The notes under the pieces: generated by a model | Seen by the model: only the letters and a program-made list of their open reading frames with translations | Databases searched by the model: none | Told to the model about the DNA's origin: nothing | Program-made: the position numbers and the translations under genes | Shown: piece after piece, positions 15,956 through 36,644 of the stretch | How positions within the stretch are numbered: the stretch's first letter is position 1 | Layout: the number at the start of each line of letters is the position of its first letter | DNA from: Nitrospirota bacterium | Lineage (GTDB): Bacteria > Nitrospirota > Nitrospiria > JACQBW01 | Length of the DNA stretch: 49,828 bases | Direction of reading: 5' to 3' | Assembly: GCA_016194305.1 (NCBI GenBank) | Contig: JACQBW010000015.1 | Location: forward strand, 1 to 49,828

Positions 15956-17224
15956 TCAGCTTTTGGCGGCACCTGCTGGAGACATCTCGCCCAACCAGCT
16001 AAAGGCTTTCATCTGCGCGGAAAGAACATCTTCCTGTTTTAGCTGTAGTTCTGTCAGCTGGTCTTCTGTGACCCAGGAGCCGGGGTTTTCCATGAGCTCG
16101 GCGAGCTCTAGAAGCTGACCGAGAGTTCCCCCTCTTTTTGGCGACAGCGCTTCTTTTATCGTTTCAGAAAGATTGAGGCTTGTGACCATTTCATCCAGGG
16201 TGATCTTATACTGGCTTTCAAATAGGGAAAGCATGCCGATCATATACGCCTGGTCGATGGTGTCCCGGTTTGCACGAAGGAGCGGGTGCGAAGCGGCAAG
16301 TTGTTCCATGAAAGTGGCCCGAACTGCCGCCATATCGACGAGAGGGTTTTCCATTCCCTTGCTGTCGTCAGAAGCGAATAGGGCGAGTTGAACCCATCTC
16401 TGAAGTTTTTGTCGGCCGACAATGGCCAGGGCATGCCGAACGGTTTCTACTTTCTGGCGAAGACCCAGTGAAACTGAATTGACTAATAGAAGGAGTTTAT
16501 AGGTCAGTACGGAACTTCCCCGGAAAACTTTTTCAATTGCGTCCATTTCTGCATCTTCCGATAAGAGACGCATCAATTTGAATAGCGATGAAGAAGCTTC
16601 GTCAATTGGTTTTTTTTCAATGACAGAGGGTTTGGCAAAGAAGTATCCCTGGAAAAGGTCGAAGCCGAGGCCCCGGCACTGGAGAAATTCCTCCCGAGTT
16701 TCCACTTTTTCAGCAAGAAGTTTTACCGGATAAGTTCGGAACTGCTTTACAGCTTGTGTAAGCTGTTCGGTCGACATTCTAAAAGGATGAACTTTGATGG
16801 TGTGGATAATTTTATAAAGGAGATCGAATGCAGGATTGAAATCATGATCATCCAGTGAAAGTTCAAATCCTGTTTCCTTCAAGGTGCTGCAGCGCAGGAG
16901 CAATTCCGGTGTCACCGAAATCGTTCCCGGGAGTTCCAGAATAATTCTTTCCTTCGGAAGAAGTTCAACGACGTCTCCCATGAGAAGCTCAATATCCGCC
17001 TTAATGAGACCTTTGTAAGCGCCCAAAATCTGATCGAGTCCGAATCGGGAGACGATATTCATAATACCATTAGCGACGGTGTAGGAAATGTCTTTTCCGG
17101 GTTCAACCTGGGCGGGTCCCGCCGTAGAACGAAAATAGAGCTCGTAAGCCACGGTCTCATCTTTCATATTGAGAATGGGCTGCCTCCCAATAAGATAGTT
17201 CTCTTTTCGTTTTTCAGGTCCCAT
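15956..17224 (-). CDS. EAL-HDOD signalling protein (YuxH/CdgJ type), copy 1
   Basis: 422 residues with an N-terminal EAL-like domain (about 10-210) and a C-terminal HDOD domain (about 215-410). The EAL motif itself is replaced (VAYELYFR), and the usual DDFGTG-like metal loop reads DDHDFNP. The KVH, AEKVET and FDLFQGYFF elements remain. So it probably does not hydrolyse c-di-GMP and works as a binding or scaffold protein, as known for this family. The HDOD part shows RGSSVLTYKLLLLVNS and RHALAIVGRQKLQRW. It is closely similar along its whole length to the protein at 19168-20442. Confidence 0.93.
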   Translation of the reverse strand: MGPEKRKENYLIGRQPILNMKDETVAYELYFRSTAGPAQVEPGKDISYTVANGIMNIVSRFGLDQILGAYKGLIKADIELLMGDVVELLPKERIILELPGTISVTPELLLRCSTLKETGFELSLDDHDFNPAFDLLYKIIHTIKVHPFRMSTEQLTQAVKQFRTYPVKLLAEKVETREEFLQCRGLGFDLFQGYFFAKPSVIEKKPIDEASSSLFKLMRLLSEDAEMDAIEKVFRGSSVLTYKLLLLVNSVSLGLRQKVETVRHALAIVGRQKLQRWVQLALFASDDSKGMENPLVDMAAVRATFMEQLAASHPLLRANRDTIDQAYMIGMLSLFESQYKITLDEMVTSLNLSETIKEALSPKRGGTLGQLLELAELMENPGSWVTEDQLTELQLKQEDVLSAQMKAFSWLGEMSPAGAAKS

Positions 17225-18344: not shown

Positions 18345-19064
18345 ATGAAAACATTGTTTTTAAAGACGGTCTTTCTCTTTCTTGGGACATTTTCTTTTGT
18401 CTTATGTTTACGTGAAACTGCCTCATGGGGCGCGAATATAAACGGATCTTTGACAGGCAAGGTCCGGTATTTTGGATCGGCTCCTCTGCCTGAATCTGAA
18501 GCCATCAAATCTGATTCAGAGGTGTGCGGATCGAATTATTTAGAGGAAACATTAGTTAATTTTGAAAATAAGGGAGTTAAGAATGCCATTATCAGCCTGA
18601 AAAAAAAATTGAACCCCTTGGAATCAGGAGAGACAGAAAAAAGAATCTACCTTATAAGCAAAAAATGTCATATTGAACCCTATGTGACTGCGATTCAGGT
18701 TGAGAACAGTCTAAGCATCGAGAATTCAGATCCCATTTTGCATGTATTGAAGTTTTCTCATAAAGACCAGGTTCTGTATACTTTACCATTACCTCCGCAT
18801 GGGAAACTGGTCAAAAAAATCAATCAACTCGGCCTCATTCAAACGACGTGCGTTATTCATTCCTTTATGAAGTCGTATATCGCGGTGCTGGATACACCCA
18901 ATTATCTGCTCAGCGATCTCGATGGCTCGTTTCGTTTCCAAACTCTCGACCCCGGCAAATATAGATTGTCCATCTGGCATAAATCATTTGGATCGATAGA
19001 AAAGGACATTGAGGTTCCTTCTGGAAGGAACCTAACCCTGAATTTCGAATTGGAGCAAAAATAG
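18345..19064 (+). CDS. Secreted cupredoxin-like protein with carboxypeptidase-regulatory-like domain
   Basis: 239 residues with an N-terminal signal segment (hydrophobic residues 4-20). The middle has a plastocyanin-like set of possible copper ligands: His133 (SDPILHV), Cys169, His172 and Met175 (C-x2-H-x2-M). The last 50 residues (YLLSDLDGSFRFQTLDPGKY) look like a carboxypeptidase-regulatory-like beta-sandwich. Further cysteines at 61 and 108 may form a disulfide. A second protein of the same design lies at 35910-36644. Probable role: periplasmic copper-containing electron carrier or copper-binding protein; substrate and partners are not known. Confidence 0.7.
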   Translation: MKTLFLKTVFLFLGTFSFVLCLRETASWGANINGSLTGKVRYFGSAPLPESEAIKSDSEVCGSNYLEETLVNFENKGVKNAIISLKKKLNPLESGETEKRIYLISKKCHIEPYVTAIQVENSLSIENSDPILHVLKFSHKDQVLYTLPLPPHGKLVKKINQLGLIQTTCVIHSFMKSYIAVLDTPNYLLSDLDGSFRFQTLDPGKYRLSIWHKSFGSIEKDIEVPSGRNLTLNFELEQK

Positions 19065-19167: not shown

Positions 19168-20442
19168 TTAAATTTTCCCTGCAGGGGCGGGAGACATCTC
19201 ACCGGTCCAGTTATAGGCCTTCATCTGCGCCGCCAGAATGTCTTCCGTTGATGAGCCAAAATCTTCAAGAAGAGCAGGCGTAATGAGTACGGAGCCAGGT
19301 TGTTCCATGAGCTCTGCCAGTTTAAGGAGTTTTCCAATTGGTCCCTGGCGTTCCGGAGAAAGCGCTTCCCGTATGGAATCGGAAAGATTCAGGCTGGTGA
19401 CTATTTCCTCGAGCGTGATGTTGTAGAGAGACTCAAAAAGGGAGAGCATCCCCACCATGAAGGCCTGGTCGGCATGTTCGCGGTTGTTTCTGAGCTGAGG
19501 GTGGCGACTGGCGAGATGTTCCATAAAGGTAGCACGAACTGCGGCCATATCCATTAACGGATTGTCCGTCCCCATGCTGTCGTCAGAGGCAAACATGGCC
19601 AATTGAACCCACCGCTTCAGCCGCTGTCTTCCGACGATCGCAATCGCGTGCCGTACCGTCTGTATTTTTTCCCGCACTCCCATTCCCACTGAATTGACCA
19701 AGAGAAGGAGCTTGTAAGTCAGGCTGGAGCTCCCTCGAAATATTTTTTCGATAAGATCCAATTCGGCGTCATCTGAAAGTAGTCGCATTAATTTGAGAAG
19801 TCCCGCGGCATCTTCATCGATCGGTTTCTTTTCCAATACAGAAGGTCTCGCGAAGAAATAGCCCTGAAAAAGGTCAAAGCCCCAATCCGTACACTTTTGA
19901 TATTCCTCTCTCGACTCCACCTTTTCGGCTAAAATCTTTAACGGAAATTTTCGAAAATTCTGAATCATTCTGACTAATTGATCTTCGGGCAGCCTGAATG
20001 GATGTATTTTAGTCATGTGAACGATTTGATACAGCGGTTCCAGACCGGGATTAAAATGATGCCTGTCCATAACCATCTCAAATCCGGCTTCTCTCAGGTC
20101 AGAACACCTGTTGATGTATTCCGGAGTGACCGAGTGAATTTCCGGCAGTTCCAGGACGATCCGTTCTTTGGGCAAAAGTTCGATCGCATCCCCCATCAAC
20201 AGGTCGTGGTCGATCTTGATCAGGCCTTTATGTTTTCCTACAATTTGATCGAGTCCGAATTGGGAGAGGAGATTGATTATGCCATGTGCCATGGCATACG
20301 GCGCGTTTCCCATCAGCTCAGACTTCGAGGATAGCGTGCTGGAACGAAAGATAATTTCAAAAGCGACCGTTTCGCCCTTTAAATTAAGAATTGGCTGGCG
20401 GCTGATAAAGAAATTTCTGTTTTTTTGATCCAGATTTATCAT
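19168..20442 (-). CDS. EAL-HDOD signalling protein (YuxH/CdgJ type), copy 2
   Basis: 424 residues, same design as the protein at 15956-17224 and identical to it over most positions of the HDOD half. The EAL signature is further degraded (VAFEIIFR), and the acidic pair has become DRHHFNP, so phosphodiesterase activity is unlikely. AEKVES and FDLFQGYFFARPS persist. The HDOD part contains RGSSSLTYKLLLLVNSVGMG and RHAIAIVGRQRLKRW. Both copies end in a short helical tail with AQMKA(F/Y)xWxGEMSPA. The copies are separated by about 1.9 kb holding unrelated genes, so this is a duplication with later insertion or rearrangement. Confidence 0.93.
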   Translation of the reverse strand: MINLDQKNRNFFISRQPILNLKGETVAFEIIFRSSTLSSKSELMGNAPYAMAHGIINLLSQFGLDQIVGKHKGLIKIDHDLLMGDAIELLPKERIVLELPEIHSVTPEYINRCSDLREAGFEMVMDRHHFNPGLEPLYQIVHMTKIHPFRLPEDQLVRMIQNFRKFPLKILAEKVESREEYQKCTDWGFDLFQGYFFARPSVLEKKPIDEDAAGLLKLMRLLSDDAELDLIEKIFRGSSSLTYKLLLLVNSVGMGVREKIQTVRHAIAIVGRQRLKRWVQLAMFASDDSMGTDNPLMDMAAVRATFMEHLASRHPQLRNNREHADQAFMVGMLSLFESLYNITLEEIVTSLNLSDSIREALSPERQGPIGKLLKLAELMEQPGSVLITPALLEDFGSSTEDILAAQMKAYNWTGEMSPAPAGKI

Positions 20443-22147: not shown

Positions 22148-23056
22148 TTAATCTTTGATTGCGGCGATAATCTGGTGGACGTTATATTCGATCAGAGAGA
22201 TATAGGTTTCGGTTCCCGGAATGGCTCCGGTCAACGGCGACAGAATCACCAAACGGGCACCTGATTCCACCGCAATCATCTGGGGAATTTTATTGCTGAG
22301 TTGGGGCTCAGAAATGATCACACGAATCTTTTCCTTTCTAATGAGCTGAATGAGTGCTCGAATCTGCTTTGCAGAAGGTTCTGCGCCAATTTGTGTCATA
22401 AGGTTTCCGGCCACTTTCAACCCGAATCGCCTGGCGAAATAGGGCCAGGCCGGGTGCTGCGTAATGATGGTCTTATTCTTGAGTCCTTTCAGTTCTGAAA
22501 TAAGGATCATTTCAGTCTGATCGAGTTTCATGAGATAGAGGCCCTGGTTTTTCAAATAAAAATCTTTATGGGCAGTATCAATTTTAATCAGATCCTCCGT
22601 AATTTCTCTGACCATAATTTTCGCATTTTCCGGATCAAGCCAGATGTGGGGGTTCCCGCCGTCATGGGAATCTGCGTCTTCTCTCGCTGGGTTTCTTTCT
22701 TCATCCCGCATCAAAGGGATTCCGTTGGATGTGGTAATCAGGACAAGTGACGGATTTTCCGCATTGGCAATGAGTCCTTTTACCCAAACTTCCAGGCCGA
22801 GACCCACTTGGACCATCATGCGGGCATTCTTAATTGCAAGAATATCACCAGGTTTAGGTGTATAAGTATGTTCGCTTTCCATTCCGGTCAAGAGCGTGGT
22901 AACAGAAACCCGGTTCTGGCCGACCTGTTCGACAAAATCTTTTAAAAAAGGGAGCGTGGTTACGATATTTATTTTATTTTCTTCTCCCCCTGTTGGTTGG
23001 CAGAACATGAGAATAAAGAAGGCAGAGCTCACCAGGAACCGAAATCTATTCCTCAT
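22148..23056 (-). CDS. Zinc/manganese ABC transporter, substrate-binding protein
   Basis: 302 residues, cluster A-I (ZnuA/MntC/TroA) protein with an N-terminal signal segment. The metal-site residues are visible as His in SEHTYTP, His in NPHIWLDP, His in TQHPAWPYFA and an acidic residue in SEPQLSN. The His-rich loop of zinc-specific members is reduced to a short stretch (ADSHDGGNPH), so zinc or manganese cannot be decided. The ATG lies inside the end of rsmI (11-bp overlap) with GGAGAA as ribosome site. Confidence 0.94.
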   Translation of the reverse strand: MRNRFRFLVSSAFFILMFCQPTGGEENKINIVTTLPFLKDFVEQVGQNRVSVTTLLTGMESEHTYTPKPGDILAIKNARMMVQVGLGLEVWVKGLIANAENPSLVLITTSNGIPLMRDEERNPAREDADSHDGGNPHIWLDPENAKIMVREITEDLIKIDTAHKDFYLKNQGLYLMKLDQTEMILISELKGLKNKTIITQHPAWPYFARRFGLKVAGNLMTQIGAEPSAKQIRALIQLIRKEKIRVIISEPQLSNKIPQMIAVESGARLVILSPLTGAIPGTETYISLIEYNVHQIIAAIKD

Positions 23057-23777
23057 AAAGGTTCTCCCGCAGAGTGCCCTGGCTATCTTTTTTTTGACGT
23101 TTCTTCTTTTGTCTCCCTTCTATCAAAAGCGTCAATTCTCCTTTGACCTGCCATTTCCGCTGAGTAATTTCTGAAAGAGTTCCGTAAATAAACTCCTCGA
23201 ATTTTTTGGTGAGTTCCCGGGCGATAACAGCTCTTCGGTCCCCGAACGCAATCTGAAACTCATCCAGAACAGCAAGAATTCGATGAGGAGATTCAAAAAA
23301 AATCAATGTCTTTTTCGTATCCTTGAGTTCTTCCATCATTTTCAGCCTGGCAGCTTTCTTTCGAGGCAAAAAGCCGTTGAAAATGAATCCGTCTGTGGGA
23401 AGTCCGGAAGCGGAAAGGGCCGTCAAGACCGCAGAAGGTCCGGGAAGGGGAATCACTTTGATCCCGCATGCAATAGCCTGATTAATAAGCAGATATCCCG
23501 GGTCGGACACGGTAGGCGTTCCGGCGTCTGAAACCAAAGCAACCTGGCGGCCTTCCAGGAGGAGTTTAACAAGTACAGGGGCCTTTTCTTCCTTATTAAA
23601 GTCATGATAGCTTGTCAAAGTTTTTGAGATTTCAAAATGGGAGAGAAGATTTTGCGTATGACGCGTGTCCTCGCATGCGACGACGTCCGCTTCCTTTAAA
23701 ATTCGAATTGCCCGAAGCGTCATATCTTCGAGATTTCCGATTGGTGTTGGAATGATATAAAGATTCCCCTGAGTCAT
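23046..23777 (-). CDS. rsmI: 16S rRNA (cytidine-1402-2'-O)-methyltransferase
   Basis: 243 residues of the tetrapyrrole-methylase-like RsmI family, methylating the ribose of C1402 in the 30S P site. Family blocks: YIIPTPIGNLEDMTLRAI, VACEDTRHTQNLL, VSDAGTPTVSDPG, PLPGPSAVLTALSASGLP and FFESPHRI. A basic tail (KKKRQKK) closes it. It lies 42 bp downstream of a triheme cytochrome gene and overlaps the transporter binding-protein gene, which suggests shared transcription. Confidence 0.96.
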   Translation of the reverse strand: MTQGNLYIIPTPIGNLEDMTLRAIRILKEADVVACEDTRHTQNLLSHFEISKTLTSYHDFNKEEKAPVLVKLLLEGRQVALVSDAGTPTVSDPGYLLINQAIACGIKVIPLPGPSAVLTALSASGLPTDGFIFNGFLPRKKAARLKMMEELKDTKKTLIFFESPHRILAVLDEFQIAFGDRRAVIARELTKKFEEFIYGTLSEITQRKWQVKGELTLLIEGRQKKKRQKKDSQGTLRENLYEE

Positions 23778-23819: not shown

Positions 23820-24296
23820 TTAACTCTTTTTCTCTCGGGAGTGGCACCGGCCACAATCAAACAGCGGAAAAGCGACCTTTCCATGGCACCTGCCGCAAAA
23901 TTCTCCTTTGAAGATTCTTTGCATCGAAACCGGATTGGCTCCCGCTCTTGGAATAAAAATGGAAGGATGACAATTAATACAGTCGAGCCATTGCGTGTGT
24001 GGAAAATGAGGAAATACGACGTCCTTGAGGGGAAATCGTTTATCGATTTTAAATACAATATTCAAATCAAGAGGAGGGATAGGTGGCGCCAACGGATCGA
24101 GACTGTCACTCGGACGAATGGGACCTTTTTGAATCGCTATAACCCAATCAATATAACCTGCGGGGGTCACGGGAAGGTATTCAAGGGCAACGGACTGGGC
24201 GGGCTGGTCATTGGGAAAGACCGGATTAAATGGAGCGACAGCGCAAGAGGAGCAGACCCAAGAAATCATAAGAATTATCCCGAATTTCATCTTCAT
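23820..24296 (-). CDS. Triheme c7-type cytochrome, lipoprotein-like, copy A
   Basis: 158 residues. Three heme-attachment motifs: CINCH (106-110), CGRCH (134-138) and CGRCH (148-152), plus distal His candidates in FPHFPH (97, 100). This fits the triheme c(7)-type cytochrome domain known from multiheme electron-transfer proteins. The N-terminus is a hydrophobic signal with Cys15/Cys18, a possible lipobox. A shared pre-heme block (GYIDWVIAIQKG ... PPLDLNIVFK) recurs in two other cytochromes here. Closest copy: 25540-26070. Expected location is the outer face of the inner membrane or the periplasm. Confidence 0.88.
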   Translation of the reverse strand: MKMKFGIILMISWVCSSCAVAPFNPVFPNDQPAQSVALEYLPVTPAGYIDWVIAIQKGPIRPSDSLDPLAPPIPPLDLNIVFKIDKRFPLKDVVFPHFPHTQWLDCINCHPSIFIPRAGANPVSMQRIFKGEFCGRCHGKVAFPLFDCGRCHSREKKS

Positions 24297-24299
24297 CGG

Positions 24300-25493
24300 T
24301 CAGGGGAGGCGCTTTCTGATCTGAAATCGATAGAGGTCGCTTTCTGCAGGTTCTCGCCACCCGAGGTATACGGACTGGAAATCCGAAATGAGAATGGGAT
24401 TTAACCTGAAATCGCCGGGAGAACTTTCAGGAGGAAGTTCGATTATTTTGCTTTCTCCTTCGAGAGTCAGTGTTTGGGCGGCTATTTTGGGTATTCCAAG
24501 AAGGTCCCAATTTTCCCAGGCGATCAGGAGCGTTTCATGATCGGGGACTAGGACCGGATTGAATGACTTTCCGCCAAGTCGGATCAGTCTGGAATTTTCA
24601 GATTTCCATCCTTCCGGAGTTAAATGGCGGAGCTGGATCGTAAATTGCTCGTCAGCGCTCCTTTCCTGAAAGATTGCAAAGAGATTATTTTTAAAGATTG
24701 CGAGAGAAGGATTGAATGCCTGCATTTTCTGATTTTGATTTAATGCTGACGGCGATCTTAACCATTTTCCATCTTCCAGCACAGCATGATATATTTGGAA
24801 GACTCTCGTTTCATCGGATTCTGCCCAGATCAAATGTCCTTTATTGCCGGAAAACAGCAAAAAAGGAGCCTGGGTAATGTGCTGCGCTTCCAGTCCGAAA
24901 CCGGCACCGACGGGAATCCAGGTTTCGCCGTTCCAATGTTTAATATAAAGTTTGGACCATTCTTTTTCACCTGTTTCATTCCAGGTCAGGTATGGCAATC
25001 CATTTAAAAAGGCAAGCATCGGACTTCTAGCGTCTTTTTCGGGCTTGTTATTTAATGCTCCCCCTAAATTTTCCCATTCCGATCCATTCCACTGCTTGAC
25101 GTAAAGCTGGGAGATATTGGAGTCATTCTTTTCGGTCCACGTCAAAAATAGATTTTTCCCGTTTGTGGCAATAAATGGGGCCGAGGAGGAGTAAAAGCGA
25201 TCCCTGTTTAGGCTCCTTCCAATCTGTTCCCAGGCGAAGCCGTCTTTCAATCTCCTGATATAAACTTGTTGAATGCCATGTAAATCGGATTCGGTCCAGG
25301 CGACATACAGTTCGTTCTTCCAAAAGGTCATGCTTGGCGTGAGTACATGTCTGCTGGTCAAAGTTTCAGGAAGCGGGGTCCGATTAGGGTGAAACGAATC
25401 CGAAAGAGAAATCCAATTGGCGCTATGAGACGGAGAGCGGAACAAGGTGAGGAGAATGAACAGAAAAAAAACTGATTTCGACAGGATCAGCAC
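24300..25493 (-). CDS. Secreted seven-bladed beta-propeller protein
   Basis: 397 residues with a signal peptide (hydrophobic residues 7-22 ending SHSA). By eye there are seven repeats of about 45-50 residues from residue 50 on, each with a hydrophobic first strand, a short turn (KNELYVAWTESD, NGLPYLTWNETG, KNNLFAIFQERS) and an aromatic-rich end (WNGSEW, WNGETW). This is typical of a sialidase/BNR-like or YncE-like propeller. No catalytic signature is recognised, so a binding or scaffold role is more likely than an enzyme. It is embedded between two triheme cytochrome genes, three bases from the next gene. Confidence 0.75.
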   Translation of the reverse strand: MLILSKSVFFLFILLTLFRSPSHSANWISLSDSFHPNRTPLPETLTSRHVLTPSMTFWKNELYVAWTESDLHGIQQVYIRRLKDGFAWEQIGRSLNRDRFYSSSAPFIATNGKNLFLTWTEKNDSNISQLYVKQWNGSEWENLGGALNNKPEKDARSPMLAFLNGLPYLTWNETGEKEWSKLYIKHWNGETWIPVGAGFGLEAQHITQAPFLLFSGNKGHLIWAESDETRVFQIYHAVLEDGKWLRSPSALNQNQKMQAFNPSLAIFKNNLFAIFQERSADEQFTIQLRHLTPEGWKSENSRLIRLGGKSFNPVLVPDHETLLIAWENWDLLGIPKIAAQTLTLEGESKIIELPPESSPGDFRLNPILISDFQSVYLGWREPAESDLYRFQIRKRLP

Positions 25494-25539
25494 GTGATCG
25501 ATTATTCCCCGCTTAGTTTCGGTGAGGGTTCAATGAGAA

Positions 25540-26070
25540 TCAGGATTTAGGTTTTGTATGGCATCGACTGCAATCGCTTAAAGGAAAGGAGACCTTGCCA
25601 TGACATCTTCCGCAATACTCTCCCTGAATTATTTTTTCCATGGTCACCGGATTTGAGCCGGCCTGCATTTTAAAGATACCGGGATGGCAATTTCTGCAAT
25701 CGAGCCATTCGGTATGTGCCAGATGAGGATAAACGACGTCGGGAATGTCACCTTTGGCTTTGAAGATAATATTGAAATCGAGCGGGGGCATGGTAGGTGT
25801 ATCCGGATCGCCGGTTAGCGTTTCTTTGGGATGTATAATTCCCTGCCGGAGTGCCTGAACCCAGTCAACGTACCCCTGCTTTGCCTTTGGAAGATAGTCA
25901 AAAGCAAGTGGATGCGCGTCTTCAGAAAGAGAGGTTGTTTCCTGTCCCGACTTCTCAACGGGAGAAGGGTCATTTTTCTGAATGAGTTTTTGGGAAGTTT
26001 CTGACTGTACGCAGGAAGTAAACGTCAAAAAAAGAGAGAGAAATAGAGCGGATTTCTTGAAATGGAACAA
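25540..26070 (-). CDS. Triheme c7-type cytochrome lipoprotein, copy B
   Basis: 176 residues. Lipobox LTFTSC with Cys20, so a membrane-anchored lipoprotein. A flexible polar spacer (about 21-55) leads to the shared block GYVDWVQALRQG ... MPPLDFNIIFK and then the heme domain: CRNCH (125-129), CGRCH (153-157), CSRCH (167-171), with distal His candidates in YPHLAH. It is clearly homologous to copy A. The gene starts two bases before the stop of the cupredoxin gene on the same strand, implying cotranscription and probably a shared electron path. Confidence 0.92.
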   Translation of the reverse strand: MFHFKKSALFLSLFLTFTSCVQSETSQKLIQKNDPSPVEKSGQETTSLSEDAHPLAFDYLPKAKQGYVDWVQALRQGIIHPKETLTGDPDTPTMPPLDFNIIFKAKGDIPDVVYPHLAHTEWLDCRNCHPGIFKMQAGSNPVTMEKIIQGEYCGRCHGKVSFPLSDCSRCHTKPKS

Positions 26071-26072
26071 AT

Positions 26073-26426
26073 TTATTTCTCTCTTCCTTCGACCGTAATC
26101 ATCCCGGTCATTTTATTGTGTATAAAACAGAAATAAGGGTATTCGCCGGGGTCTTTGAAGGTGTGACTGTAAACGGTTCCAGGACGAAATTCATCCGAAA
26201 AGATTTCAAGATCATCTGTAGGCCCCGAACCGGGGACCGAAGCAAGCACATGTTTCCGTTCATCTTTATTGTGCCAGCGGATCGTATCTCCGACTTTAAT
26301 CGTTATCTTATCTGGGTCGAATTTAAGGATATTGGGGAGAATAACGACTTCGTAAATCTGGGTTTCCGCTGCAGTGGCAGGTATCGGTGCGAAAAAGAGG
26401 CCAAATAGGAGAATTAAAATGATCAT
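26073..26426 (-). CDS. Periplasmic cupredoxin (plastocyanin-like)
   Basis: 117 residues with a signal peptide ending near ATAA (residue 20) and one cupredoxin domain. Type 1 copper ligands are visible as His59 (ERKHV), Cys100, His103 and Met106 (CFIHNKM). The sequence VGDTIRWHNKD and the YPYFCFIHNKMTGMI end are classic for single-domain blue copper electron carriers. It lies between two triheme cytochrome genes, so it likely passes electrons between them or to a terminal oxidase or reductase elsewhere. Confidence 0.92.
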   Translation of the reverse strand: MIILILLFGLFFAPIPATAAETQIYEVVILPNILKFDPDKITIKVGDTIRWHNKDERKHVLASVPGSGPTDDLEIFSDEFRPGTVYSHTFKDPGEYPYFCFIHNKMTGMITVEGREK

Positions 26427-26470
26427 GAGATGAACAATCGGCTTTAAACCCGCGAGTCATACCCTCCTGA

Positions 26471-27448
26471 TTATTTGGAAGGGGTCTGAGAGGTTGAGTT
26501 AGCGAGCGCAGCGGGACAGCCGATTCCCTTGTTTCCACAATTTTCCATACTCACGTCCCCGGCGCCAGGAAAAACAGTCCCTTCATACTTATCGCCTTCT
26601 TTTGGAACAACATGGCAACGAAGACAATCGCTAAGCGGGAAAGCGACTCGATTATGACAGCGGCCGCAGTATTCCCCCGAGGCTATTTTCGGCATGGTCA
26701 TATTCTTATTGTTTTCGGTGTGGTTCATGAGAAATATTGCAGGATGACAGTTGGTACAGGTCAACCACATGGTATGGATCTTGTGAGGGAAAATGACATT
26801 GGGCATAAAATTGCTTTTTGTCGGAATATCAAACGAAAGATCGAATGGAGGCATGTCAGGCTCATCAGGATTGAGGGAACCTTTTGGCGTCACTTTTCCC
26901 TGCCTCAGTGCATCGGCCCAGTTCACCAGACCATACTGATCCTTCGGGAGGTCAGAGACCTCCAATGCGACAGGATGTTTTGCCTTGCCAAACTGATTGG
27001 CGTCACCCGGAGGATGATTGGGATCACCTTTCCCAGCCATCACGCCTCGTCCACTTAGGTAAATCGCCTCGGAGGGAGGTATCTTCGCAATTTCTTCGCG
27101 GGTTAACGGTTTTTCATCGGGTCCAGGGGCAAGAGTGATATGGGAATAATCGACTTCCTTCAACGAGCCAGAAGATTCAACCGGCTGGGCCGGTGGTTCA
27201 CTCTTCGACTCGGAAGATGCCGCGGGTGTCGGTGAAACCGCTGCCGGCGGTTCCGGAGTTGTCGTCACGGGCGTCGTTACTGCTGAAGCTCCGGGAGCGG
27301 GCACGACTGACGGTGCGGCCTCCTGAACGGCAGGTGCGTCTTTTTTGGATTCAGGCTGTTGAGCCGAGTGGAACCAGGAACAGGAAGTCAAAACAAAAAT
27401 GGTCGTCACAAGCAACAGAGCGTTTGAAAGATTATTTTTGATCATCAT
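26471..27448 (-). CDS. Triheme c7-type cytochrome lipoprotein with long spacer, copy C
   Basis: 325 residues, the longest of the set. Lipobox LTSC gives Cys23, followed by about 65 residues rich in Pro, Ala, Ser and Val that could span away from the membrane. The block GLVNWADALRQG ... MPPFDLSFDIP precedes the heme domain with CTNCH, CGRCH and CLRCH and distal His candidates in FPHKIH. The C-terminus has two further Cys (ENCGNKGIGC) that are not CxxCH. An extra segment at about residues 95-160 (LSGRGVMAGKGDPNHPPGD) is not seen in the others. Confidence 0.9.
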   Translation of the reverse strand: MMIKNNLSNALLLVTTIFVLTSCSWFHSAQQPESKKDAPAVQEAAPSVVPAPGASAVTTPVTTTPEPPAAVSPTPAASSESKSEPPAQPVESSGSLKEVDYSHITLAPGPDEKPLTREEIAKIPPSEAIYLSGRGVMAGKGDPNHPPGDANQFGKAKHPVALEVSDLPKDQYGLVNWADALRQGKVTPKGSLNPDEPDMPPFDLSFDIPTKSNFMPNVIFPHKIHTMWLTCTNCHPAIFLMNHTENNKNMTMPKIASGEYCGRCHNRVAFPLSDCLRCHVVPKEGDKYEGTVFPGAGDVSMENCGNKGIGCPAALANSTSQTPSK

Positions 27449-27507
27449 AAGGCATCATCCTAATAAAATAAGACCGGATCATTAGCAGTAGAAATGATGG
27501 GTGTTGA

Positions 27508-27897
27508 CTATTTCAAAAATCCTCGGGCTTTGGGAATCGTAATATCGCTTTTTCCCGAGTGACAACGGTCACAATAAATTGGAGGCCATGCGATTTTTCC
27601 GTTATGGCATTTCCCGCAGTAGTCTCCTTTGACAATCTTGACCATCGTAATATCATTGGAACCTTGCTTCATTTCAAAGATATTGGGATGGCAAACTTTG
27701 CACTTGAATCGGATTCGATGAAACCAGTGTGGAAAAACAACCGGGGGCATTCCTGCTTTTTCAGCGTAATGATTCAGCGTAAGGTCTCCGTACTCGGCAT
27801 GAGTCGGCCTGCTCGTCGTCAGCAATCCGGCAATAGAGATAAATGAAGCAGCAACGATCAAAAAAAGAGAGAAGCTAAAGATATTTTTCTTATTCAT
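27508..27897 (-). CDS. Triheme c7-type cytochrome, short secreted form, copy D
   Basis: 129 residues with a signal peptide (cleavage likely near THA, residue 34). Three heme motifs CKVCH, CGKCH and CDRCH, with distal His candidates in FPHWFH. It lacks the shared GYVDW pre-heme block of copies A-C, so it is a minimal triheme protein and probably soluble in the periplasm. It is the first gene of the cytochrome group and sits behind a TTGACA-type promoter facing away from ilvB. Confidence 0.9.
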   Translation of the reverse strand: MNKKNIFSFSLFLIVAASFISIAGLLTTSRPTHAEYGDLTLNHYAEKAGMPPVVFPHWFHRIRFKCKVCHPNIFEMKQGSNDITMVKIVKGDYCGKCHNGKIAWPPIYCDRCHSGKSDITIPKARGFLK

Positions 27898-27970: not shown

Positions 27971-27999
27971 ACTCTACCCGAAATAAAAAAAGGTGTCAA
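27971..27999 (-). promoter_or_regulatory. Candidate promoter for the cytochrome group
   Basis: Minus-strand TTGACA (27999-27994) and TAGAGT (27976-27971) with a 17-base spacer. The predicted transcript starts near 27964, about 67 bases before copy D. The -10 matches consensus only partly. Confidence 0.4.
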
Positions 28000-35909: not shown

Positions 35910-36644
35910 ATGGTGGGACATTTTGTTTCGAGTTGGCGTAGAGGGTCTGTTTCCAAATTTTTTCTCGCGGCTATCCTATTAGGATTCAGTCCCTTTTCGA
36001 TGGCCTACGAAGTAATTCCGGTTGAAAAAGGGGGAGAGCTTTCCGGAACTGTTAAGTTTACCGGGGATCCGCAGGTAAACGTTTCGCACCAGGTTGTCAA
36101 CAATGCCGATTACTGCGGAGCGTCCGTCGAAGAAGAAAAATTTATTGTCGGTTCCGGCAGGGTGCTGCAGAATGTGGTCATTTCGATAGAAGGGGTCATG
36201 ACTGGCAAGAAGCCTTCGAACTCGATTTTAGTAATCGAAAATAAAAAATGTCATTTTGTTCCCCATGTTCAGGTCGGAATGGTGGGAGACGTCTATGAAG
36301 TCAGGAATTCTGATCCGGTACTTCATAACACCCATCTCCATATGGAAGAAGCCACCCTTTTGAATATCGCCATGCCGTCAGGGGGAAAGAATATTAAAAA
36401 AACAATTGCCAATACCGGAGTGATCAATGTGAGGTGTGATGCGCATAAGTTCATGCAGGGATGGCTTGTGGTAGTCGACAATCCGTATAGTGCCGTGTCC
36501 GATAGGGAAGGTCGATTTAGGATTGCCGATATTCCTCCAGGTAAATACAAAGTCAGGTTTTGGCATGAAGGGTTTCAATCTAAAATTAGAGAAATTGAAA
36601 TTTTGCCCAAAAAATCTTCCGTGCTTTCTATCGATTTCAAATAA
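35910..36644 (+). CDS. Secreted cupredoxin-like protein with carboxypeptidase-regulatory-like domain, second copy
   Basis: 244 residues with a signal peptide (RRGSVSKFFLAAILLGF, cleavage near MAYE). Copper-ligand candidates are His139 (SDPVLHN), Cys176, His179 and Met182 (CDAHKFM). An N-terminal KKCH at 112-115 and a C-terminal beta-sandwich (SDREGRFRIADIPPGKYKVRFWHEG) match the protein at 18345-19064, with modest identity. Extra His residues follow the first ligand (HNTHLHMEE). The GGAGAA six bases upstream supports this start. It interrupts the leucine genes between phzF-like and leuC. Confidence 0.75.
   Translation: MVGHFVSSWRRGSVSKFFLAAILLGFSPFSMAYEVIPVEKGGELSGTVKFTGDPQVNVSHQVVNNADYCGASVEEEKFIVGSGRVLQNVVISIEGVMTGKKPSNSILVIENKKCHFVPHVQVGMVGDVYEVRNSDPVLHNTHLHMEEATLLNIAMPSGGKNIKKTIANTGVINVRCDAHKFMQGWLVVVDNPYSAVSDREGRFRIADIPPGKYKVRFWHEGFQSKIREIEILPKKSSVLSIDFK

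Follow-up and report, generated by a model that had tools for sequence, protein, structure and literature searches.

A conserved Nitrospirota gene cluster of four trihaem cytochromes, a cupredoxin and a beta-propeller as a candidate periplasmic electron-transfer system

The window analysed here is a 49,828-nucleotide stretch of DNA from a groundwater Nitrospirota bacterium, within which six open reading frames, all on the minus strand, form a cluster at 23820-27897. In the order of transcription these are CytD (27508-27897), a trihaem protein of 129 amino acids, predicted to be soluble and periplasmic; CytC (26471-27448), a trihaem lipoprotein of 325 amino acids; CUP (26073-26426), a type-1 copper protein (cupredoxin) of 117 amino acids, likewise predicted to be soluble and periplasmic; CytB (25540-26070), a probable trihaem lipoprotein of 176 amino acids with a TTG start; PROP (24300-25493), a secreted protein of 397 amino acids with a predicted seven-bladed beta-propeller; and CytA (23820-24296), a probable trihaem lipoprotein of 158 amino acids. 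The next gene on the minus strand is rsmI (23046-23777), a housekeeping neighbour that we place outside the system. Because the successive gaps from CytD through to rsmI are short (59, 44, 2, 46, 3 and 42 nt), the six genes are likely to share a single transcript. A promoter-like site with 10 of 12 matches lies 5' of CytD (27971-27999, minus strand); 11 such sites were found versus 6.1 expected, so this one may be due to chance.

CytA starts 3 nt past the stop of PROP. In the window genome the two genes are in one frame, separated by a single TGA and one codon (24297-24302), and in a second genome of the same family, G002, by 9 nt. We considered stop-codon read-through from PROP into CytA, since a single TGA interrupts the shared frame in both of these genomes. 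The genes overlap in another frame, however, in G001 and in the four genomes of family f5 that were examined. Because the frames differ among relatives, and because read-through would bury the signal peptide of CytA, we prefer translational coupling.

Each of the four cytochromes carries three CxxCH motifs (12 in total), two distal histidines in (F/Y)PHxxH and a methionine before the second CxxCH. All score above the 40-bit cut-off of NCBIfam TIGR04257 (CytA 61.1, CytB 69, CytC 62.8 and CytD 72.2 bits) and all pass Pfam PF14522, which bears out the earlier note's description of four proteins with a c7 trihaem core and 12 haems. In a dedicated TIGR04257 search of the 2.27-Mb genome, these were the only four proteins matched; a protein with 33 CxxCH on contig C5 scores against the model as a whole, with no separate passing stretch. 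At the DNA level, the CxxCH pattern has 14 matches in the window versus 1.4 expected, a count reached by none of 100 shuffles, and 12 of the 14 fall inside the cluster genes. Residues H116, H119 and M144 (CytB numbering) are invariant in 28 aligned A/B/C-type proteins, and the same columns are found in CytA, CytC and CytD. Because the methionine is invariant in these relatives and present in CytD, and because the domains of GSU1996 have one His-Met haem each (PMC10138318), we predict one His-Met haem in each of the four proteins. Judged by sequence, then, they show the GSU1996 pattern of two distal histidines and one distal methionine per domain, and the best PDB match of CytB is the GSU1996 dodecahaem structure 3OV0 (E 1.7e-32). 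An AF2 model of CytB built with 28 relatives was poor (pLDDT 52.8) and was set aside.

Three of the four proteins had been credited with a shared block ahead of the haems, written GYxxW...PPxDxxxxF. The block is present in CytA, CytB and CytC and absent from CytD; P61, G66, W70 and P81 (CytB numbering) are invariant over the 28 relatives, but the PPxDxxxxF half is only partly conserved. Signal peptides and lipid sites were judged by eye; the signal peptides of CytD, CUP and PROP are plain. Where the earlier note counted two clear lipoboxes and one possible one, we find that of CytC clear (LTSC), that of CytB plausible (FTSC), with the lipid cysteine lost from CytB of family f5, and that of CytA weak (CSSC), with support from orthologues that carry AGGC and IGGC. 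The long Pro-rich spacer described there is that of CytC, in which about 150 residues, 61% of them P, A, S, T, E or K, separate the lipid cysteine from the block. Going by lipoboxes and spacer length, CytA, CytB and CytC may reach to different distances from the membrane.

CUP, the adjacent blue-copper protein of the earlier note, scores 39.8 bits against PF00127 (cut-off 21.2) and also matches PF13473, as well as plastocyanin and amicyanin in the PDB, and we class it as a type-1 copper protein. It does not reach the equivalog cut-offs set for plastocyanin and amicyanin. The short ligand loop, C-x2-H-x2-M, is kept in 24 of 24 relatives. The clusters of family f17 have no cupredoxin, so CUP is not essential everywhere. 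In its place, between C and B, these clusters have a third small trihaem (L110:8666-9073, 135 aa; L111:9810-10154), which suggests that this protein substitutes for the cupredoxin.

The secreted seven-bladed propeller holds at the level of a predicted model: the AF2 model of PROP has seven four-stranded blades (pLDDT 83.6, pTM 0.83). Searches with PROP found no family in Pfam or NCBIfam and no sequence match in the PDB. Its Foldseek matches are generic, the best-fitting target being the EPTP propeller of LGI1 (TM 0.72 by target), and because they are distributed among many propellers with no relation to one another, they point to no enzyme activity; we take PROP, by default, to be a scaffold.

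Genes scattered in relatives would have counted against the earlier note, and they are not scattered. Nine genomes share the order A-PROP-B-CUP-C-D, three of family f1 (the window genome, G001 and G002) and six of family f5 (G006, G011, G019, G022, G025 and G028), with CytA on another contig in G022. The order D-C-CUP-B is found in f6, f7 and f23, CUP-B in f16, and D-C and CUP-B apart from one another in f3. Because these orders recur across families, we regard the set as a stable unit. Genes over the TIGR04257 cut-off are present in 28 of 58 relatives, and A/B/C-type proteins in 180 of 396 Nitrospirota genomes; the named matches are Nitrospirota MAGs, several of them from groundwater.

Two genes downstream of the cluster in all three f1 genomes lie genes for a zinc/manganese-type ABC transporter, and it is conceivable that the propeller and the haem or copper proteins serve it by sensing, reducing or binding metal. 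We consider this quite improbable, since the transporter is adjacent only in f1 and the neighbours elsewhere are of other kinds. Specifically, the trihaem set adjoins a GAF histidine kinase in f23, a cluster of TonB, ExbB, ExbD and TPR genes in f5, f7 and f3, and conduit genes, described below, in further cases. The TonB cluster is itself conserved (six loci) and encodes TonB, ExbB, two ExbD and three TPR proteins, one of them of 1134 aa.

At the level of protein sequence, fusions reveal two pairings of parts: the propeller with an A-type trihaem, and D with a block-bearing trihaem. In five f23 genomes PROP and an A-type trihaem form one protein of 564-569 aa, propeller first and trihaem second. 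The trihaem tree, which is built on 58 alignment columns and leaves many forks open, places the one PROP-fused haem domain included (from G065) as sister of CytA (97/87), on a long branch, and recovers a D clade (100/100). In other Nitrospirota families we find hexahaem proteins in which a D-type N half (74-93 bits with the D HMM) leads, via the pre-haem block, into a C half of A/B/C type (110-135 bits with the A/B/C HMM). They are near full-length in about 50 of the 396 Nitrospirota genomes (51 counted), with none in genomes of the window's class, and f17 has split and fused forms side by side. Because the block sits exactly between the two trihaem modules in these relatives, it is probably a linker or dock. 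Hexahaem proteins often occur as adjacent pairs, giving twelve haems, among housekeeping genes (six loci).

The fusion of PROP with an A-type trihaem could also be taken to mean that the cytochromes are partly structural, giving stability to the propeller or to a surface machine without moving electrons. There is a precedent in Myxococcus, where the cytochrome TfcP serves the PilY1 propeller without electron transfer (PMC8833165). We give very little credence to such a role here, since all twelve haem sites and the predicted distal ligands are strictly kept, whereas the haem of TfcP is single and noncanonical, and since a copper carrier accompanies the trihaems.

The neighbourhood in sister families points towards the outer membrane. 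In f3, f8 and f9, D is paired with E, a block-bearing, C-like trihaem, next to rsmI, and the pair adjoins genes in the order MHC5-NHL-MHC4-SurA-barrel-NHL-MHC; rsmI marks the equal chromosomal position in the window. A D-C pair adjoins MHC5-NHL-MHC4 in the f5 genome G015, and a comparable porin-cytochrome-like cluster in f21 has D and two further trihaems next to it. The putative barrel was assigned from its sequence character and its lack of Pfam matches rather than from structure. The window genome has a porin-cytochrome-like cluster on another contig (C21, 30708-37994), which encodes a 971-aa multihaem protein, an NHL lipoprotein, a 623-aa putative barrel, a SurA-like protein and a multihaem protein cut by the contig end. 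The genome has many further multihaem genes, with 281 matches to the CxxCH pattern versus 46 in the control. Three giant ones, with about 27, 11 and 33 CxxCH, lie on contig C5 (37060-46000), near a 312-aa protein that has hydrophobic stretches and no Pfam match and near a TPR/barrel-like protein; G002 has a similar locus.

The window genome also encodes a bd-like oxidase complex with c-type cytochromes. A search of the genome for haem-copper oxidase gave nothing over the cut-off and one 139-aa frame below it, and Ca. Manganitrophaceae are likewise described as having a bd-like oxidase and no haem-copper oxidase (PMC9040806). Near the oxidase complex is a secreted protein with a carboxypeptidase-regulatory-like C-terminal domain (L134:12611-13426), and two further secreted proteins, in the window (18345-19064 and 35910-36644), have a C-terminal domain of this kind. 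Elsewhere in the window, 15956-17224 and 19168-20442 are close paralogues that resemble EAL/HDOD signalling proteins. A molybdopterin oxidoreductase match lies on contig C12 (26419-27708) within an unusually long open frame of 1603 codons.

With such an oxidase encoded in the genome, and neither a barrel nor a large multihaem gene next to the window cluster, the trihaems and the cupredoxin might serve as a periplasmic pool inside the cell only, through which periplasmic dehydrogenases feed the bd-like oxidase with electrons and which has no link to an extracellular conduit. We think this unlikely: the genome encodes a conduit as well, D adjoins such genes together with C or E in other families, and three separately anchored heads and a propeller exceed the needs of a soluble pool.

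The best explanation, and one we regard as fairly probable, is a modular periplasmic electron-transfer system, a split and lipoprotein-tethered relative of GSU1996 that links the inner membrane with an outer-membrane conduit. The gene set, haem motifs, predicted ligands, conservation, fusions and neighbourhood are read from the DNA; from the fold, the haem ligands and the neighbours we infer that the set transfers electrons, and we propose its localisation, docking, partners, link to the conduit and direction of flow in the same conditional sense. CytD would be a free trihaem carrier; the trihaem heads of CytA, CytB and CytC would be anchored by lipids, probably to the outer membrane, on tethers of unequal length. 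The cupredoxin, beside CytB, would be a second soluble one-electron carrier, PROP a non-redox scaffold that holds CytA, and the pre-haem block a linker or dock that positions D-type and block-bearing trihaems against each other. Together the four chains would behave like GSU1996, a protein of twelve haems and four domains, divided into parts, and electrons would pass between respiratory enzymes of the inner membrane and a porin-cytochrome conduit of the outer membrane. Tethered heads of different reach could meet each other, as well as soluble CytD and CUP, by collision, in the manner of tethered diffusion in PgcA, and the bd-like oxidase complex may be the terminal acceptor. As to the direction of flow, the oxidase would favour inward transfer from minerals, but giant multihaem proteins are known from metal reducers too.

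Several observations weigh against this explanation: the conduit of the window genome is on another contig, CytB of f5 has no lipid cysteine, an NrfD-type subunit (PF03916) has no match in the genome, the f17 clusters go without the cupredoxin, the short alignment behind the tree leaves many forks open, and the CytB model is too poor to bear out the dock. The kept gene set, the fusions and the porin-cytochrome-like neighbours nevertheless support the modular extracytoplasmic electron chain that had been suggested from the letters alone. A bolder form of the proposal, which we put forward as doubtful, is that the blocks assemble the four trihaems into a reconfigurable twelve-haem wire spanning the periplasm, with the propeller and the cupredoxin as branch points; this would be a phylum-wide solution of Nitrospirota and may link conduits to bd-like oxidases, in the manganese-oxidising relatives included.

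The split and fused forms bear on the passage of electrons through the periplasm of mineral-using Nitrospirota. They name the partners in advance (D with block-bearing trihaems, the propeller with A and the cupredoxin with B), and the question thus becomes one of pairwise binding and redox tests. The domain types are known, but their assembly appears undescribed: like the earlier note, which could match the set to no described complex, we found no description of it in the papers searched on TIGR04257 or on a set of trihaems, cupredoxin and propeller.

Among known systems, QrcA of Qrc and alternative complex III share a c7-like multihaem subunit with the cluster, but scores against them are 14-23 bits versus 180, and they were rejected on this ground and on that of the NrfD search. 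Porin-cytochrome conduits, including PCC_1 of Ca. Manganitrophaceae, are neighbours in sister families and occur elsewhere in this genome; they have a barrel and a large multihaem protein, whereas the window cluster has neither, and the main text of PMC9040806 mentions neither the trihaem nor the propeller. The PpcA family of cytochromes c7 resembles CytA to CytD in fold class, in having three haems and as a periplasmic carrier. Its haems are all bis-His, whereas in CytA to CytD a methionine replaces the third histidine, with one predicted His-Met haem; membership of the PpcA-type c7 group (NF043011) was rejected at 16.5 bits for CytB and 14.7 for CytC versus a cut-off of 120. PgcA of Geobacter, in which haem domains move by tethered diffusion (PMC11520253), offers a likely analogy in working mode, with redox heads on flexible low-complexity tethers such as the CytC spacer may provide, but a single PgcA chain bears three monohaem domains, whereas the cluster has trihaem heads on separate chains. 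Closest is GSU1996 of Geobacter sulfurreducens (3OV0, 3OUE, 1RWJ), which shares the c7-type trihaem domain, the twelve haems and the methionine at the His-Met position. There, four domains form a single polypeptide; here they are divided among four genes and four differently anchored chains, accompanied by the pre-haem block, a copper protein and a propeller.
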